This document shows, one piece after another, positions 28,888 through 41,002 of a DNA stretch of 64,000 nucleotides. Every line of letters begins with the position of its first letter. Position 1 is the stretch's first letter. Under the pieces are notes generated by a model. The model was not told where the DNA came from and searched no databases. It saw only the letters and a program-made list of their open reading frames with translations. The translations under genes and the position numbers were made by a program. Source of the stretch: Planctomycetota bacterium. GTDB lineage: Bacteria > Planctomycetota > J058. Location of the stretch: NCBI GenBank assembly GCA_003695705.1, contig RFHU01000377.1, forward strand, positions 1 to 64,000, read 5' to 3'.

Positions 28888-31800
28888 TCAGCGGCGCCGC
28901 CGCTTCTTCCGCACAGGCTGCGGCTCGGACCGCTCCGAGTCCCCCGAGGCCTCGGGATCGGTCTTCCGTCCGAGGTAGCTCCCGTCGGCGAGAGCGGCCA
29001 GCCCCCGATCGAGAACCGTGGTGAGTTCCTTTCGACCCGGAGGAACGCGCGCTCTGAGCGTCTGGAGTCGCTGCCGAGCGTTCTCCACCTTCCCTTGGCC
29101 GGCGATGCAGTAGGCGCGTAGGACCTCGAGGTTTACGTCGACGGTCGTGGGGGTGCGGGCGTCCACGGTCCGGATGGCGTTGAGGGCGTCGGCGAAGCGG
29201 CGAAGGCGAACGAGGCGCTCGATGCAGCGCAACGCAAGCGGAGGGGGGGCCGCCTTGCTGAGCGCGGCGCGCAGCAAAAGCTTGGTGGCCAGGTCCTCTT
29301 GCTTGCGCGCGACCGCCGTCTCGGCAATCGCGGCGTGGGCCACGGGCGTCTCCCCCGCCTGCGGATGCTTCAAAACGACCCGCCCGAGTTCCTCCGCTTC
29401 CGTGTAGCGACCCAGATGGTTGAGGAGTTGAATGGCACGGATCCGGAAGGCGAGGACGCGCGGGTTTTGCTCCATGGCTCGCTTCAGGCGACCGAGACCC
29501 TCCGCGACCTTGCCCGCGTAGACCTCCGCGGTCGCCGTCGCAATCAGCAAGTGCTCTGGGTAGCGAGGCAAGCGTCCCTTGGGGGCGGCGAGTTCCGCGG
29601 CGAGTTCCGCGGCGAGGCGTGCGAAGTCCTCCCGGCTCGCGAAGCCGGCCGGGAGACGCTCCTGCACCGTGAGCAGATTCACACGCCCGATCTTGGCGGC
29701 TGGTTCGCGCGCCTCGAGTTCGAGCCAGCCCCGCAGCCACCCCTGGTGATCGCCCGCGGTCAACTGGCGGAGCAAGGCCTGCGCCCGCGTTGCGTTCGCC
29801 TGGGTCGTAAACAGGAGCGCAGGCAAGCGCTCCCAAACGAAGGGAGGCTCTTGGTCCGGCCCGAAGTAGCGAACCGTGAGCTTGACGCTCGTCTTGGCTC
29901 GAGAACTCGGGGGCTGAACCACGAGGACCGCGTAGCGACCGGAACGCAGGGGGCGCGAGCCTCGCCCCGCGAGGAGGAGCGTCTCGTCGGGAGAAGGCGT
30001 GTTCGCCTGCAACTCGCACTCATTGAGGTTCTTCGGCTGGCCCCGGCTCACGTAGAGGTCGATGTCGGTCGTCGCTTCGCTGAGGGTCAGCAATACGGCC
30101 CGCGTACCCTCGGGCACCACCAGATCGAACGGGAAGGAGTGAAGCCGACCGCCCCCGTTGAAGCGGACCGTCTTGGAGCAGTTCTGCGCAATGGTACGCG
30201 CCTGCGCCTCGCGCTCCTTGCGCTCCCGCGTCGCCCCCTCGAGGGCGGCGATGAAGGACTCGACCTCGCGCAGCGCGTGTTCCCCTCTGCGCCGCGCCTT
30301 CTCCTTGGCCTGGCGGAGCGCGCGGACGCGACGTTCGTCGTCTCCTCGCGGTTGGCTGTGGATCACGGCCTCGGCGAGTTCTGCCCAGGGGTCGTCGACG
30401 TCGAGGTTGCGGGCGGTGCGCTGGTCCTCGAAGGCGTCCGGTCGGCGGCCTCTGCGGGCCAAGAGGATCGCGCGGTCCACCAGAAAGACCTGCCGGAACT
30501 TGTCGCTCCGAACTGCCTTGTTGGCCGCCTCGAGCCCCTCTCGCGCGGCTTCGTCGTCGCCGAGGGGTTTGCCCTCCAAGCGCAGGAAATAGGCGAGGGC
30601 GCCGTAGGCTTCGGCCTCGAAGCTCCCGCGCTCGCTCGAGCGGAGGAAGCGCTTGAGCCGCTTGCGCGCGGACTCGTGGGCTCCACGGAGATGCGCGAGG
30701 TAGGCCTGCGCGATCTCCTCGGCGGCCTTCTCCTCGGTCTCCTCCAAAGGCCCGAGCCCTTCCGCCGCCTCGGCCTTCTCGAACAGCGCCTCCGCCGCCT
30801 CCCGGTCGCCGTATTGGCGTAGCTGGATCAGTCCCGCGGCAAGGTTCGCTCGCGCCCGATGCTCCTTGGACCGGGCCGCGAGCAAGAAGTCTTCCAGGGC
30901 CCCCTTCCACGAACAGCGGAGGCGCCGCACCAAACCCCGCCGATAGGCCGTCGCCGGGCGAGGCTTGCTGTCCGGGCGCAGCTTCGCCTCGTAAGCGACC
31001 GCATCATCGAAGGCCGCCTCGGAGCGCCCCAAAGCACGCAGGAGTTCGGAGTAGGTGCTGGCCGCGCGGGCCTGGGCGTAGGCGTCCTGGCCTCCGGTCA
31101 CCGCGCGTTCGGCGCGCTGAGCGAGCTGCTCCCGCTTGCGGCGACGCGCCGCCTCTTCGCGGCGTTTCCGCTCGGCCTCGGCCTCCTCCTTGGCCCGGCG
31201 TTCCTCTTCCTTGCGCAGACGCGCCTCCTCGCGCCTCCGCTCCGCCTGGTAGTTGCTGTGGATGGCGGCGACGAGTCCGACCGCACCGACGACGGCGAGC
31301 GCAGCCCCGGCGACGACCGCCGCCTGCGCGCGGTTGCGACGGATCTTGCGCAGCCACGCCGTGAGGGGCGACGGCTTGCGGGCCCGCACGGGCTCGCCGG
31401 CAAGGTAGCGCTCGAGGTCCTCGGCCAGCTCGAGGGCGGTGGCGTAGCGCCCTTCCTTCTCCTTGCAAAGGCACTTCAGGCAGATCGCCTCCAGCTCGGG
31501 CGGAGCGCTTGGGCGGACTTGCCGCGGAGGCACGGGCTCCTCTTCGACGATCTTGCGCAGAAGTTCGTTCTGCGTCTTGGCCGTGAAAGGAACGCGCCGG
31601 GTGATGACCTCGTAGAGGATGGCGCCGAGGGCGTAGACGTCCGAGCGCGCGTCCATGGCACGGTGGTTCCCGCGTGCTTGCTCGGGGGGCATGTAGTAGG
31701 GCGTGCCGATGGCCACCCCCGACTTGGTCATGCCCTGGTCGGCCTCGAGGTTCTTCGCGAGCCCGAAGTCCATGATGTAGGGTGTCCCGTCCTTGGCCAC

Positions 31801-32913
31801 CAGAACGTTGCTGGGCTTGAGGTCCCGGTGGACGACGCCGTGCTGGTGCGCGTGGTGCGCGGCGTGGCACACCTCCACCAAGATCTCCACGCCTCGGCGG
31901 ACGGGGAGGCTCTTGGAGCGGATCATGTCCTGCAGTTCCTGGCCTTCCACGTAGCCCATGGCGTAGTAGAGAAGGCCGTCGACCTCGCCCACGTCGAAGA
32001 CGGGGACGATGTTCGGGTGGTCCAGGCGCTGGGCGAGTTCGGACTCCGCCTTGAAGCGACGCTTGAGCTTCTCGGAGGCGAATTCGCCCGCGAGGAGCAC
32101 CTTGATGGCGACGACGCGCTCGGGCTGTCCCACGGGCGCAGCCTTGTAGACGACCCCCATGCCGCCGCGACCCAGCTCGCCCAGGATCTCGTAGGGGCCG
32201 AAGCGTTTGCCGACGCCGAGTTCGCCCGAGTCGAAGTCGTCGCTGAGTTCGAACTCGTCGGGCGCCGAGGCGGTGCTGCCGACGCGGCGCCCCGAGTCGT
32301 TCGGTCCGACCGCCAGGAAGGCAGGCGCGGGAGGAACGTGGGAATGATGCCCACTCCCCGGAGGCGGCGAGGCGCGTCCGCCCGTGGGATGCCAGGAGCC
32401 CGGAGGGGCCGGGGGGGAGGTGGCCGGGGAGCGCGCACTCCCAGGAACCGCCCGCGGACCGCTGTCGACCGGGCGCACGAAGGAGCCCACGCTCGTCCCC
32501 TGGGAGTGGGCGGGGAAGGGCCCGCTCCCCGGCGCGGTCCCGTAGCGACCCGAGGAGGGGACCTGCTGGACCTGGCGCGCGGAGGTGGTGCGAAAGGAGC
32601 CGCCGCTCGGGGGAGGAAGCCGGGCGGGCCCTCCGCAGCGCGGACAGGTTTGCGGACTGTTGGGGCTCGGCGCGAGGTACGCGCTCCGGCAGCGATAGCA
32701 GGCGCGACCGCGCCCTTCGATCTCGTTGCGCAGGCGCTGGAACCGCTCTACGTCGAGCTCGCGACGCTGGACGAGCAACTGGCCCAGGGAGCAGTCCTGC
32801 CCCCCGCGGATGCGCGCGTCGCGCTCCGCCACGAGGGCGGCGAGGCGCTCCGTGCCAACGAGCCGCTGCTCGGCAAGGAGTTGGCCCCACAGATGCTCGC
32901 GGGCTGCGTCCAT
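28888..32913 (-). CDS. Ser/Thr protein kinase with N-terminal tandem-helix module, zinc ribbon, TM helix and C-terminal TPR-like region
   Basis: CYRC-x15-CPRC zinc ribbon; LGRGGMGVVYKA, VHRDLKPSNVLV, DFGLA, GTPYYMPPEQA; TM AQAAVVAGAALAVVGAVGLVAAI; long helical repeat region. Confidence 0.88.
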   Translation of the reverse strand: MDAAREHLWGQLLAEQRLVGTERLAALVAERDARIRGGQDCSLGQLLVQRRELDVERFQRLRNEIEGRGRACYRCRSAYLAPSPNSPQTCPRCGGPARLPPPSGGSFRTTSARQVQQVPSSGRYGTAPGSGPFPAHSQGTSVGSFVRPVDSGPRAVPGSARSPATSPPAPPGSWHPTGGRASPPPGSGHHSHVPPAPAFLAVGPNDSGRRVGSTASAPDEFELSDDFDSGELGVGKRFGPYEILGELGRGGMGVVYKAAPVGQPERVVAIKVLLAGEFASEKLKRRFKAESELAQRLDHPNIVPVFDVGEVDGLLYYAMGYVEGQELQDMIRSKSLPVRRGVEILVEVCHAAHHAHQHGVVHRDLKPSNVLVAKDGTPYIMDFGLAKNLEADQGMTKSGVAIGTPYYMPPEQARGNHRAMDARSDVYALGAILYEVITRRVPFTAKTQNELLRKIVEEEPVPPRQVRPSAPPELEAICLKCLCKEKEGRYATALELAEDLERYLAGEPVRARKPSPLTAWLRKIRRNRAQAAVVAGAALAVVGAVGLVAAIHSNYQAERRREEARLRKEEERRAKEEAEAERKRREEAARRRKREQLAQRAERAVTGGQDAYAQARAASTYSELLRALGRSEAAFDDAVAYEAKLRPDSKPRPATAYRRGLVRRLRCSWKGALEDFLLAARSKEHRARANLAAGLIQLRQYGDREAAEALFEKAEAAEGLGPLEETEEKAAEEIAQAYLAHLRGAHESARKRLKRFLRSSERGSFEAEAYGALAYFLRLEGKPLGDDEAAREGLEAANKAVRSDKFRQVFLVDRAILLARRGRRPDAFEDQRTARNLDVDDPWAELAEAVIHSQPRGDDERRVRALRQAKEKARRRGEHALREVESFIAALEGATRERKEREAQARTIAQNCSKTVRFNGGGRLHSFPFDLVVPEGTRAVLLTLSEATTDIDLYVSRGQPKNLNECELQANTPSPDETLLLAGRGSRPLRSGRYAVLVVQPPSSRAKTSVKLTVRYFGPDQEPPFVWERLPALLFTTQANATRAQALLRQLTAGDHQGWLRGWLELEAREPAAKIGRVNLLTVQERLPAGFASREDFARLAAELAAELAAPKGRLPRYPEHLLIATATAEVYAGKVAEGLGRLKRAMEQNPRVLAFRIRAIQLLNHLGRYTEAEELGRVVLKHPQAGETPVAHAAIAETAVARKQEDLATKLLLRAALSKAAPPPLALRCIERLVRLRRFADALNAIRTVDARTPTTVDVNLEVLRAYCIAGQGKVENARQRLQTLRARVPPGRKELTTVLDRGLAALADGSYLGRKTDPEASGDSERSEPQPVRKKRRRR

Positions 32914-33858: not shown

Positions 33859-34572
33859 GTGCGCGTTCCCAGGTTTTTCCACGACCGCTTGCCCCGCATG
33901 CCGGGGACGGCCTGCTCCCTCGAAGGCGACGAGGCGGTGCACCTCGCACGGGTCTTGCGCCTGCGGCCCGGAGACGAGGTGGAACTCTTCGACGGTCGAG
34001 GTGGAGTCGGACGCTTCCGCCTGGCGGAGGTCGGCCGCCGGCGATCGCGGCTGGAGCTCCTCTCGCGCCGCGGTGCGGCGCCGGCCCTCCCCTTCGCGGT
34101 CCACTGCGCCGTGGCAACCCCCAAGGGCAAGCGAGCGCATCGCCTCGTCGAAGCCCTCACCGAACTGGGTGCGGCAAGCTACGCGCCGCTCGTGTGCGCG
34201 CGCAGCGCCGCTCGCCCTCCCGAGCCCGAAACCGCGCTGCGCTGGGCGCAGGAGGCCTGCAAGCAGTGCGGCCGCGACCTGCTGCCCGCCATCGCCCCTC
34301 CCTTGGCGGCGGAGAACGTCCCGGCGCGAGTCCGCGAGCACCCCCTGTCCCTCCTCCTCGACCCGCGAGGCGCCGTCCCGCTGCGCGAAGCCCTGCCCGC
34401 CACCCCCTGCTCCACCTTGCTCCTGGTCGGACCCGAAGGCGGGTTCACCGACGCCGAGCGCGAAACCTTCGCCGCAGCCGGCGCCCGGTCCGTCGTCCTC
34501 GGCCCTTCGGTGCTGCGCATCGAGACCGCCGCCGCCGCCGCCCTCGCGGCCCTGGTCGCGGCGTGGGCGTGA
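33859..34572 (+). CDS. rsmE: 16S rRNA (uracil1498-N3)-methyltransferase
   Basis: LEGDEAVHLARVLRLRPGDEVELFDG, EALTELGAASYAPL, LLVGPEGGFTDAERE, LGPSVLRIETAAAAAL. Confidence 0.92.
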   Translation: MRVPRFFHDRLPRMPGTACSLEGDEAVHLARVLRLRPGDEVELFDGRGGVGRFRLAEVGRRRSRLELLSRRGAAPALPFAVHCAVATPKGKRAHRLVEALTELGAASYAPLVCARSAARPPEPETALRWAQEACKQCGRDLLPAIAPPLAAENVPARVREHPLSLLLDPRGAVPLREALPATPCSTLLLVGPEGGFTDAERETFAAAGARSVVLGPSVLRIETAAAAALAALVAAWA

Positions 34573-34642: not shown

Positions 34643-35251
34643 ATGCCGCGCATGACCCCCGAGCGGATCGACGTGCGCGTCGCGCACCCGCACCGCTGCC
34701 CCTACTGCCACGACGCCGTGCGGCCCGAGGAGGAGAAGCACGCCTGCGAAGGGTGCATGGCGTGGATGCACGCCGAATGCTTCGCCGCCTACGCGGCCTG
34801 CGGCGCCTGCGGCCGCGCCCCGGCCGGAAGACCCGCGCCGGCGCCGGCGAGATCGCCAGGGGCACCGTCCCTCCTCGAGCGGGCCAAGGAGCTGAACGAG
34901 CGCATCGAGTCCCGAGGGTCCCCGATCGCAGACACGGCGGCGGAACGCTGCCGGGCTCCGGGCTGCCCTGAGGCGCGCCTGGTGGGGAGCAGCCTCTTCT
35001 GCGCACGCCACCGAGCCGAACACCGCCTGCGAAGCCGGCGGCAAGACGCAAGGACCCTGCTGGGGATCGGTCTGCTGAACTTGGTCGTTTTCGCGGGCAT
35101 CGCCTGGTTCTTGCGCGGATCCGGGGAAGCGCCGGGACGGGATGACGTGCTGGGCATTTTCTGGATCCTCAGCGCCTTCGGCGCCCTCGCAACCGCCTGG
35201 GGCGCCTGGGTGCTCGTTCGGGTCCGGCGGGAGGGGGATCCCAGCGGATGA
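34643..35251 (+). CDS. Membrane-anchored RING-finger-like zinc-binding protein
   Basis: CPYC-x12-CEGC-x4-H-x2-C-x6-CGAC ligand pattern, second cluster CRAPGCPEARLVGSSLFCARHRAEH, then two TM helices. Start 34643 or 34652. Confidence 0.7.
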   Translation: MPRMTPERIDVRVAHPHRCPYCHDAVRPEEEKHACEGCMAWMHAECFAAYAACGACGRAPAGRPAPAPARSPGAPSLLERAKELNERIESRGSPIADTAAERCRAPGCPEARLVGSSLFCARHRAEHRLRSRRQDARTLLGIGLLNLVVFAGIAWFLRGSGEAPGRDDVLGIFWILSAFGALATAWGAWVLVRVRREGDPSG

Positions 35252-35760
35252 AGCCCACCCGCAGCGACCATCTCAGCGACGCCGAACTCGCGCTGCGGGG
35301 ACTCTCGCGCGAGAGCGACCTGCGGCTCGATGCGGAGGGGCGCTTTTGGTTCGGGCCTTCGCTCTGCACCCATCCGGGAGTGACCGCGGCCTTCGCGCGC
35401 TGGATCGAGCGCCACCCGTCGGGGCGCTACGTGCTGCGCACCGACTGGCACTACGTCTACCTGCAGGTGGACGGGGCGCCCCTCCACGCACGCGCCGTCG
35501 AGGACGGCCCCGAAGGTCCGGTCCTCCGCCTCGCGGGCGGAGAACGCGAGCCCCTCCGCCCCGAGACCTTGCGCGAGGGCCCCGACGGAACGCTCTACGC
35601 CAGCGGGCGCGACGGGTCGTGGCCCGTGCGGCTCGGCCCTGGGGCGGCCTTGGACCTCGGCGCGTGGCTCGTCGCCGGGCCCGAGGGACGTCCCTGCTTC
35701 GAAGCCGGCGGGCGGCGGCACCCGATCCCGCGGGCGGAGGACCCCCTGCGGAATGCTTGA
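35248..35760 (+). CDS. DUF1285-like protein
   Basis: ATGA overlap with upstream gene; DLRLDAEGRFWF...HPGVTAAFARWIERHPSGRYVLRTDWHYVYLQVDGAPL resembles DUF1285. Confidence 0.45.
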   Translation: MKPTRSDHLSDAELALRGLSRESDLRLDAEGRFWFGPSLCTHPGVTAAFARWIERHPSGRYVLRTDWHYVYLQVDGAPLHARAVEDGPEGPVLRLAGGEREPLRPETLREGPDGTLYASGRDGSWPVRLGPGAALDLGAWLVAGPEGRPCFEAGGRRHPIPRAEDPLRNA

Positions 35761-38214: not shown

Positions 38215-38407
38215 GGGCGAAAATGCTACCGCCTGGGGCGGAGGGAGCGGAGCCTCAGCGAAGGACTCCGGCGAGTGGCAGGGCGCAAGCTGCCCTCGCG
38301 CCACCGCCAGGGTGCCGCCGCCGCGTAGACCGCGGGAGCCTGCGCGCGGAGGGAACCGCGACGCCGCACCGCTTCGCGTAGACTCGGGTCCGCCTGGGGA
38401 GGACACG

Positions 38408-41002
38408 GTGCGGGGCGTCTCGTGCTGCTGGGTCTTGACGTGCGCTGCGGCGACGGCAGCGGCGGCGGCGCCGGAGGAGTCGGCGACGCCGCCGGCGAGC
38501 GAGGCCGACCGGCGGGCGGCCAGCGAGGCGGCAACCCAGGCAGGCGTCCACGCCTACCGGGCGAAACGCTGGGCCCAAGCCGTCGCCGCGCACGGACGCG
38601 CCATTGCGCTCTGGCCCGAGAACGCACGATCCCTCAACGACCTCGCCTGGATCTTGCTCACCGCGCCCGACGAAGGGCTGCGGGATCCGCGCCGGGCCTT
38701 GGAACTCGCCCGCCGGGCGGTGGCCATCGAGCCGCGCGCGCACGCCTACCTCGACACCCTGGCCACGGCCTGGGACCGCATCGGGCGCTCGCGGAAGGCC
38801 GCGCGGCTCGAGTTCGAGGCCACGCGTCTCGACCCGCAGGACGTCTACGGCGAGCATCTCGTCCGCTTCGCGCAGCGGGCGCGCTCGGGCGCCGCAGGAA
38901 ACGGGCGTGCCGTGGCCGAGGCCACGGGACTCGAGGCGTGGGGCTGGCGGGTCCGAGCTTGCGCCGCCACTCCGCCCCGCGCGGCGCGACCGCTGTGGGA
39001 GCGGGCCCTCTCGCTCGTGGCCCACGTCGAGGGTGGCGACCTGCGAGCGCTCGCCGTGCGGGGCGAGGCGCTCGCGGCCCTCGGACGATGGGCCGAGGCC
39101 GAAGTCGCCCTCGGCGAGGCCGTGGCCCACGGAGCCGATCGCCTGGTGCCGGCGCTTTGGGTCCACCGCGCCCAGGCGCTCGAGGCCCTGGGGCACCGAA
39201 CGGAGGCCGCGGCAGCCCTGGAGGAGGCGCTCGCCCGCCGGCCCTCGGCGCACGATCTGTGGCATCGCCTGGCGGAGACCTGGCGCGCCCTGGAGCGGCC
39301 CGAGCGCGTCGCCGACGCAGTGTCCCGGGGCGTTGCCGCCGTCTCCTCGGCGTCGCCGCTCTGGGCCACCCGAGTACGGGCCCGCTTGCACCGCGTGGCG
39401 GCGCGCGCCTTCGCCGACGCCCTCGCGCGCGCGCGAACGGGCCTCCCGCCCGAGGCTCCCGACCCGCCGGCGGCCGCGGCCGCGCGGCGCGGTTGGCGCG
39501 ACGCGCTGGTCCGCTCCGTCGCCGCCCGGAGCGAAAACGACGCCGCGGACCGGCGCATCGCCGAACTCGACGCGCGCCTGCGCAACGGCGCCCCGCAACC
39601 CTCCCGCGCGGACCTGCGCGCGCGCCTGGGCCGCGAAGTGCTCGGCGTCGAAGAGGCGCCGCGCTTTCGCGCGGAGCCTTTGCCCGGAGGCGTCCGCGCA
39701 CGGCGCGTGGCCCTCGGCGACGTCGACGACGACGGCGACCTCGACATCGTGACCGACGGCTCGCGTCTGCTGCGCAACGACGGGGGAGGACGCTTTCGCC
39801 TCGACGAAGACTCCGGCCTGCGACCTGGCAGCCAGGGCGGTGTGCTCGGCGACGTGGACCGAGACGGTGACCTCGATCTCTTCGCCTTCGGCGGCGGACG
39901 AGCGGGGGACCGACTCTACCTCAACCAAGGAGGCGGTCGCTTCCGCGACGTCGCCGGCGCGGGCGGCGCGCGCGACGCGCTCCCCAGCCAGGCCGCGGCC
40001 CTCGGCGACCTGAACGGCGACGGAGCCCTCGACCTCTACGTCGCCAACTACGAGCGCCCGGGCCCGCCCCTCGGTCGCGGAACGCGGGACCGGCTCTACT
40101 TCGGCGACGGTCGCGGCGGCTTTCGCGACGCCTCGACGCGCCTCGGCAGCGCCGCGGCGCTCTGCGCGCGTGGCGCGAGCATGGCCGACGTCGACGGCGA
40201 CGGCGACCTCGACCTGTTCGTGCCGACCTATCGCCTGCAGCGGGACCTGCTGTGGATCAACGAGGGGTCGGGGAAGCTGCGCGAGGAGGGGCGCGAGCGC
40301 GGCGTGGCGGGGCGTGCAACCCGCGGCGCGTACGGCCACGGCATCGGGGCGGCCTGGGGGGACCTGGACCGAGACGGAGACCTCGACTTGGTCGTGGCGC
40401 GCCTGGCGCACCCACGCTTCATCGAATTCAGCGACACCACGGCCGTCTACCTGCAGCAAGCAGACGGTCGCTTTCGCCGTGCATCCGGACGGGCGGGAAT
40501 CGCCTTCGAGGAAACCCACGCGAACCCGACCCTCTTCGACGCCGACGACGACGGAGACCTCGACCTGTTCTTGACCAGCACCTACCCCGGACGGCCCAGC
40601 AGCCTCTGGCGCAACCTGCTCTGCGAGACGGGAACTCTGCGCTTCGAGGACGTGACCTGGGTGGCCAGCGCGCGCCTCTACGATGGCTGGGGAGCGGCGG
40701 CGGGCGACCTCGACGGCGACGGCGACCTCGACCTCGCCGTCTCGGCGGGAGGACGACTGCGCCTGCTCATGAACCGGGGCGCGGAGGGGACGAACCCCCG
40801 CAGCCTGCGGGTTCGGCTGCGTGGCACGCGCGGCGACGCCTGGGGCGTGGGCGCGACGGCGATCCTGCGCAGCCCTGGCGCCCCGCCGCTCCTCGAGGCG
40901 GTACGACTGGGAGAAGGCACCGGCTGCCAATCGGAACCGGTGCTCCACTTCGGCCTGGGGCAGCGAAGGGGTCCGTTCTCGCTGGAGGTGCGCTGGCCCT
41001 AG
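38408..41002 (+). CDS. TPR + FG-GAP/VCBS (CRTAC1/ASPIC-UnbV) exported protein, apparently truncated by an in-frame TAG
   Basis: Signal-like MRGVSCCWVLTCAAATAAAAA; TPR NDLAWILLTAPDEGLRDPRRALELARRAV; repeated D(V/L)D(R/G)DGDLDL loops; C-terminal LEVRWP then TAG at 41000. Confidence 0.8.
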   Translation: MRGVSCCWVLTCAAATAAAAAPEESATPPASEADRRAASEAATQAGVHAYRAKRWAQAVAAHGRAIALWPENARSLNDLAWILLTAPDEGLRDPRRALELARRAVAIEPRAHAYLDTLATAWDRIGRSRKAARLEFEATRLDPQDVYGEHLVRFAQRARSGAAGNGRAVAEATGLEAWGWRVRACAATPPRAARPLWERALSLVAHVEGGDLRALAVRGEALAALGRWAEAEVALGEAVAHGADRLVPALWVHRAQALEALGHRTEAAAALEEALARRPSAHDLWHRLAETWRALERPERVADAVSRGVAAVSSASPLWATRVRARLHRVAARAFADALARARTGLPPEAPDPPAAAAARRGWRDALVRSVAARSENDAADRRIAELDARLRNGAPQPSRADLRARLGREVLGVEEAPRFRAEPLPGGVRARRVALGDVDDDGDLDIVTDGSRLLRNDGGGRFRLDEDSGLRPGSQGGVLGDVDRDGDLDLFAFGGGRAGDRLYLNQGGGRFRDVAGAGGARDALPSQAAALGDLNGDGALDLYVANYERPGPPLGRGTRDRLYFGDGRGGFRDASTRLGSAAALCARGASMADVDGDGDLDLFVPTYRLQRDLLWINEGSGKLREEGRERGVAGRATRGAYGHGIGAAWGDLDRDGDLDLVVARLAHPRFIEFSDTTAVYLQQADGRFRRASGRAGIAFEETHANPTLFDADDDGDLDLFLTSTYPGRPSSLWRNLLCETGTLRFEDVTWVASARLYDGWGAAAGDLDGDGDLDLAVSAGGRLRLLMNRGAEGTNPRSLRVRLRGTRGDAWGVGATAILRSPGAPPLLEAVRLGEGTGCQSEPVLHFGLGQRRGPFSLEVRWP

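Follow-up and report, generated by a model that had tools for sequence, protein, structure and literature searches.

A membrane-anchored RING-type protein of a Planctomycetota bacterium, probably an adaptor of a ubiquitin-like conjugation system

The protein encoded at positions 34643-35251 (plus strand) is best explained as an E3-like adaptor of the RING type, anchored in the membrane and working in a bacterial ubiquitin-like conjugation system. We put the probability of this reading at roughly 0.6. The same genome encodes a complete ubiquitin-like operon and about 39 RINGs, and the protein is therefore probably one of many ubiquitin-ligase-like proteins.

Results and discussion

The RING gene and its product

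The window, that is, the whole stretch of 64,000 nucleotides that was analysed, was searched with a profile of the RING family and gave a single match, the frame at 34643-35251 (E = 1.5e-19), while 20 shuffled windows gave no match to the profile at E<=1e-3. The open reading frame and its translation define a protein of 202 aa, with an alternative ATG possible at 34652. The eight-ligand pattern described in an earlier note on this DNA is present in the translation exactly as it was given there: CPYC (residues 19-22), CEGC (35-38), H43-x2-C46 and CGAC (53-56). The zinc ligands are thus C19, C22, C35, C38, H43, C46, C53 and C56, with spacings of x2, x12, x2, x4, x2, x6 and x2. The RING-type C4HC3 cross-brace domain that they delimit covers residues 19-56 (34697-34810, plus strand) and was assigned on the invariance of the ligands, the AlphaFold2 model and Foldseek matches to RING and PHD structures.

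The second Cys/His cluster and two transmembrane helices that the note had also listed were recovered from the translation, the hydropathy profile and the helices of the AlphaFold2 model. The cluster has the form C-x4-C-x11-C-x2-H (C103, C108, C120 and H123; 34949-35011, plus strand) and lies in a region of low model confidence (pLDDT of about 50-60 across residues 91-120). Four relatives (L042, L050 and two L058 genes) show the same pattern, and L057 a looser version of it; by genome, a second zinc site ahead of a transmembrane segment is seen in G006, at several G008 genes and, more loosely, in G004. The site probably binds one zinc. The first transmembrane helix (about residues 136-156; 35048-35110, plus strand), found by hydropathy and AlphaFold2, lies within a predicted helix of residues 121-159, and the second (about residues 169-187; 35147-35203, plus strand), for which charge was counted as well, within one of residues 166-198. 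The basic flanks of the helices suggest that both termini are inside (N-in/C-in), which would place the RING in the cytoplasm.

Fold of the domain

AlphaFold2, run with a 64-row alignment, returned block pLDDT values of 91-96 for residues 21-60 and 84 for residues 11-20, and a mean of 88 for the RING domain alone. When the predicted domain was compared with the PDB using Foldseek, the matches were cross-brace fingers of the PHD and RING types. PHDs (Pygopus, MLL3) head the list by E-value and align over about 30-40 columns, while the RINGs of RNF165, EL5, RNF24 and Ring1b align over 44-52 columns, most of the domain. The RING of RNF165, from its complex with UbcH5b~Ub, aligned over 46 columns with a TM-score of 0.70 by target, and that of EL5 had a TM-score of about 0.62 by target. 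Since the Foldseek E-values, all above 0.04, are not significant by themselves for so small a domain, the fold assignment rests on the confidence of the model together with the list of matches.

The ligand order, C4HC3, is not the C3HC4 or C3H2C3 of canonical RINGs; it is the ligand set of Prok-RING_1 (PF14446). The domain by itself scored 13.7 bits against this Pfam model (cut-off 29.1). Across the family, 58 of 58 domains matched the model at E<=0.1 (best 4e-11), as did 53 of 68 full-length proteins at E<=1e-3. The model confidence, the Foldseek matches and the family-wide matches to Prok-RING_1 support a RING-type, cross-brace treble clef with a membrane anchor, in agreement with the original proposal. 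The two independent zinc ribbons that the note had named as the competing fold are disfavoured by Foldseek, where the sole ribbon-like hit among the matches listed was a weak, low-probability one to ribosomal chains. A plain PHD finger was also considered and rejected: a long gap is expected before the last ligand pair and only about 6 residues are present, coverage by the PHD matches is partial, and the PHD score in Pfam is 14.7 against a cut-off of 24.

The E1-Ubl-E2-JAB operon

According to the earlier note, no E1, E2 or ubiquitin-like (Ubl) gene is visible in the window and conjugation is therefore not implied. The observation is correct, but the deduction fails when the whole genome is searched, for E1, E2 and JAB genes were all found, in one operon on another contig. 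This operon, on contig C236 of the genome under study (G000), consists of an E1 (ThiF), a 92-aa YukD-type Ubl, an E2 (UQ_con) and a JAB peptidase, with Pfam scores of 182, 47, 46 and 42 bits, respectively, all past the cut-offs. The four genes are intact and carry their catalytic motifs. The E2 reads FHPNI-RGQAVCHSQQWSPAW and retains the HPN motif, the catalytic cysteine and WSPA; the SPA motif is a feature of eukaryotic E2s that bind RINGs. Its relatives in the PDB are eukaryotic E2s (E = 1e-6). The JAB motif HTHP-x6-S-x2-D is present. Serine/threonine kinase-like genes lie on both sides of the operon, on the same strand (L158:5422-7698 and L158:12332-13609, G000:C236).

An E2 was found in 8 of the 10 genomes of the order to which this genome belongs, versus 0 of 14 control genomes. 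All eight of these E2-positive genomes (8/10 overall) have the gene order E1-Ubl-E2, and in five of the eight JAB was recovered next to it; two of the remaining three loci stop at contig edges. Mean pairwise identity across the order is 93% for the Ubl (87-98), 77% for E2, 68% for E1 and 55% for JAB; for comparison, RsmE proteins share 37-58% identity with that of the genome under study. The Ubl ends in ...TFVAG, without a tail in three genomes and with one of 2-6 variable residues in the remaining five, and Ubls outside the order mostly end in ...TAG or ...VAG with variable tails. The tails resemble a precursor pattern, in which the protein would be trimmed to its terminal glycine. In one genome of the order, G008 (loci L169 on C833 and L163 on C1106), the compact E1-Ubl-E2 operon coexists with an E1-Ubl-JAB operon of an older type that includes two RINGs of its own, and a second, divergent E2 lies on another contig (L167).

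Size, spread and architecture of the RING family

Paralogous or homologous RING domains were aligned in 58 rows (alignment A1), and a profile made from this alignment was used with a threshold of E<=1e-3. The earlier note would have given up its assignment if no homologues retained the eight ligands; all eight positions are kept in the 58 domains, seven columns being strictly invariant and the eighth always Cys, at x2 or x4 spacing. Among 69 family members the last ligand pair has x2 spacing in 46 and x4 in 23, and the second ligand spacing varies across the family from 10 to 15 residues.

The profile detects 39 RING domains in the genome under study, so that the protein is no rare one-off. 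Across the ten order genomes, counts run from 39 to 112 RING domains in nine, this one included, and fall to 3 in the tenth, G007. Elsewhere in the Planctomycetota, 33 of 382 genomes have any RING, with at least 1-4 each; these counts are lower bounds, since no more than 17 candidates were scored in each genome. A search of public records with a close subset of A1 returned related sequences from metagenome-assembled genomes (MAGs) labelled Planctomycetota and from one labelled 'uncultured bacterium'.

A transmembrane helix is predicted downstream of the RING in 49 of 69 distinct proteins, and other RING proteins bear DUF4011/AAA helicase, PDZ, Sel1 or GntR domains. The RING is placed at the N-terminus of DUF4011/AAA-type helicases in two genomes (L011/L003, G000:C32; L048, G004:C187). 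At L049 (G005:C46) and L051 (G002:C309), the gene of a single-RING membrane protein adjoins a gene with two tandem RING-like domains.

Association of RINGs with the conjugation system

The genomic link to E1, E2, Ubl and JAB that marks Prok-RING_1 is found here as well, on a different contig in the genome under study and within operons for homologues elsewhere in the Planctomycetota. At 13 loci outside the order (L196, L197, L201-L204, L206-L208, L210 and L212-L214) and one within it (L169, the second operon of G008), 14 in all, family RINGs lie inside or beside an E1/E2/Ubl/JAB operon. Co-occurrence was assessed over 392 genomes by Fisher tests, the p-values of which ignore shared ancestry: a RING is present in 28 of 29 Ubl-positive genomes (p = 8e-31; outside the order 20/21, p = 1e-23) and in 27 of 34 E2-positive genomes (p = 3e-24; outside the order 19/26). 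The surroundings of the compact operon contained no dispersed RING, and a tree of the short domain parts dispersed from in-operon RINGs (27/29 versus 67/69), though its support is uneven (0.94 and 0.17) and we do not build on it. Most simply, the operon RING of Planctomycetota ubiquitin-like systems would have left the operon in this order and multiplied, and the operon would have shrunk to E1-Ubl-E2-JAB.

Two genomes of the order have RINGs and no detected operon. Genome searches found no E2, Ubl or E1 of this type in G007, and no E2, Ubl or order-type E1 in G003, a MAG with 72 RINGs that is 89% complete and in 970 contigs; the missing operon of G003 is either an assembly gap or a real loss. 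Outside the order, 14 genomes have 1-4 RINGs with E2 undetected, which indicates that a genome may have the domain and lack the system.

Neighbouring genes

Upstream of the RING gene lies rsmE, encoding the 16S rRNA m3U1498 methyltransferase (33859-34572, plus strand; PF04452 and PF20260), and downstream a DUF1285-like gene of 170 aa (35248-35760, plus strand), which has a weak match to PF06938 (14.1 bits, cut-off 29.3) and orthologues in the order. Both are regarded as neighbours outside the RING system. The rsmE stop is separated from the RING gene by 70 bp, and the RING stop codon overlaps the DUF1285-like start by 4 bp as ATGA, so the RING gene is probably co-transcribed with its neighbours. 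The conserved rsmE-RING-DUF1285 order envisaged in the earlier note was not seen in relatives. There, rsmE and the DUF1285-like gene adjoin each other (G003 and G006) or converge (G002 and G005), in each case without a RING, and the best relative of the RING, with 50% over 96 aa, sits elsewhere in G002. This synteny rules out a conserved operon, and in this lineage the RING gene looks like an insertion. Elsewhere in the window we noted a large serine/threonine kinase with an N-terminal, zinc-ribbon-like C-x2-C...C-x2-C part (28888-32913, minus strand) and an 896-aa protein with TPR and FG-GAP/UnbV_ASPIC domains (38312-41002, plus strand).

Proposed mechanism and alternative explanations

From genome context and fold we infer that the dispersed RINGs, that of this protein among them, would bind E2 and act as ligases on a substrate, and that they would still be coupled to the operon. 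In the mechanism that we propose, JAB would trim the short Ubl tail where one is present, E1 would adenylate the C-terminal glycine (...VAG) of the Ubl, and the Ubl would be handed to the active-site cysteine of E2. The cytoplasmic RING would then bind E2~Ubl and help to move the Ubl onto a lysine of a substrate in or near the membrane. The remainder of the RING protein (the second zinc site, the linker and the transmembrane hairpin) would select this substrate, and JAB would reverse the tag. The roughly 39 RING proteins would share one E2 and one Ubl, each serving as a different adaptor.

The expanded RINGs might instead be generic zinc-bound modules of the PHD/C1 kind that bind protein or lipid and are uncoupled from conjugation, with the operon working on its own. 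The C4HC3 order and the C-x2-C-x4-H-x2-C spacing do match PHD and C1, both of which appear among the Pfam and PDB hits, and a ligase role is not obvious for RINGs fused to helicase, PDZ, Sel1 or GntR-type proteins; the 14 genomes with E2 undetected and the separation of dispersed from in-operon RINGs in the unevenly supported tree point the same way. We nevertheless consider this reading doubtful, given the near-constant company of RING and Ubl, the homologous RINGs that sit in operons, and the structural matches over the full domain, which are to RINGs and not to PHDs. Furthermore, the operon-less G007, whose assembly is larger and less fragmented than that of G003, has just 3 RINGs. It is very improbable that the protein works with RsmE and the DUF1285-like product in rRNA or stress physiology at the membrane, its RING being a structural element: the close spacing of the three genes suggests co-transcription, but the RING is absent from the rsmE and DUF1285-like loci of four relatives and its best relative lies elsewhere.

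A role in defence overlaps with the E3-like adaptor reading in its chemistry and differs in purpose, the expansion being a defence or conflict network in which RINGs are sensors or effectors and the Ubl system a switch. Bacterial E1/E2/Ubl/JAB systems such as Bil and CBASS Cap2/Cap3 are anti-phage (PMC10097602, PMC11354881), RING-bearing Ubl systems are known in conflict systems (PMC7159879), and the E1 weakly matches the E1-E2 and BilD models of PADLOC. However, PADLOC gave no match for the Ubl, E2 or RING, and a near-invariant Ubl kept through the order does not look like part of a defence module that moves and diversifies; we therefore think this purpose unlikely.

For the order as a whole, we see an even chance that, in parallel to eukaryotes, this uncultured group evolved a hub-and-spoke network, with one E1, E2, near-invariant Ubl and JAB serving 40-112 dispersed, mostly membrane-anchored putative RING ligases that differ in their substrate-binding parts. 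Planctomycete ubiquitin-like operons were already described in 2011 by Burroughs et al., as cited in PMC4197634, and what stands out here is the dispersal and expansion of RINGs to tens of copies together with a near-invariant Ubl. We found no report of such an expansion in the Planctomycetota in the literature accessible to us, many subscription papers lying outside it. Bacterial Ubl systems in the cited literature have no ligase, or a few in the same operon as the system. If our reading is true, the lineage would offer a parallel to the ubiquitin system of eukaryotes, with a large set of dispersed ligases and a modifier held under strong purifying selection, and one could test how a single modifier and a small number of E2s come to be used by many ligases. 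As a practical lead, the genes for E1, E2, Ubl and dozens of natural RINGs are short and could be co-expressed in laboratory E. coli.

Comparison with known systems

BilABCD and type II CBASS (Cap2/Cap3) likewise combine an E1, an E2 and a JAB peptidase acting on a protein or Ubl in one operon; they are anti-phage modules without a RING E3, whereas here the E2 is a UQ_con protein with HPN and the Ubl is YukD-type. PHD fingers (Pygopus, MLL3/4) share the C4HC3 cross-brace and space their first six ligands in a similar way, but in our domain the last ligand pair follows after about 6 residues and the match spans about 30-40 columns only. The ubiquitin operon of Caldiarchaeum subterraneum contains the same prokaryotic set of Ubl, E1, E2, RING and JAMM peptidase (PMC4197634, PMC11354881); it differs in having one RING-H2 gene, in the operon, with no expansion reported in those two papers.

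Prokaryotic RINGs are described as C4HC3 with a longer last pair in a review of prokaryotic ligases (PMC11354881), and prokaryotic RING E3s go back to Burroughs, Iyer and Aravind 2011, whose work is represented here by the accounts in PMC4197634, PMC11354881 and PMC7159879. So far as those accounts extend, the family resembles these Prok-RING_1 proteins in its C4HC3 ligands, in the longer last pair of some members (C-x4-C in 23/69 here) and in the link to E1, E2, Ubl and JAB in Planctomycetota. Theirs, however, number 1-3 and lie inside the operon, like those at the operon loci listed above, while here the operon is without a RING and 39-112 are dispersed, most with a transmembrane helix. Compared with eukaryotic RING E3s, the proteins described here are predicted ligases, are C4HC3, and would act with a YukD-type Ubl ending in a single glycine (VAG). 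They share with the eukaryotic RING E3s (RING-H2: RNF165, EL5, Arkadia) a predicted cross-brace, an E2 with HPN, Cys and WSPA, and a plan in which many ligases, here putative, serve few E2s and a highly conserved modifier.
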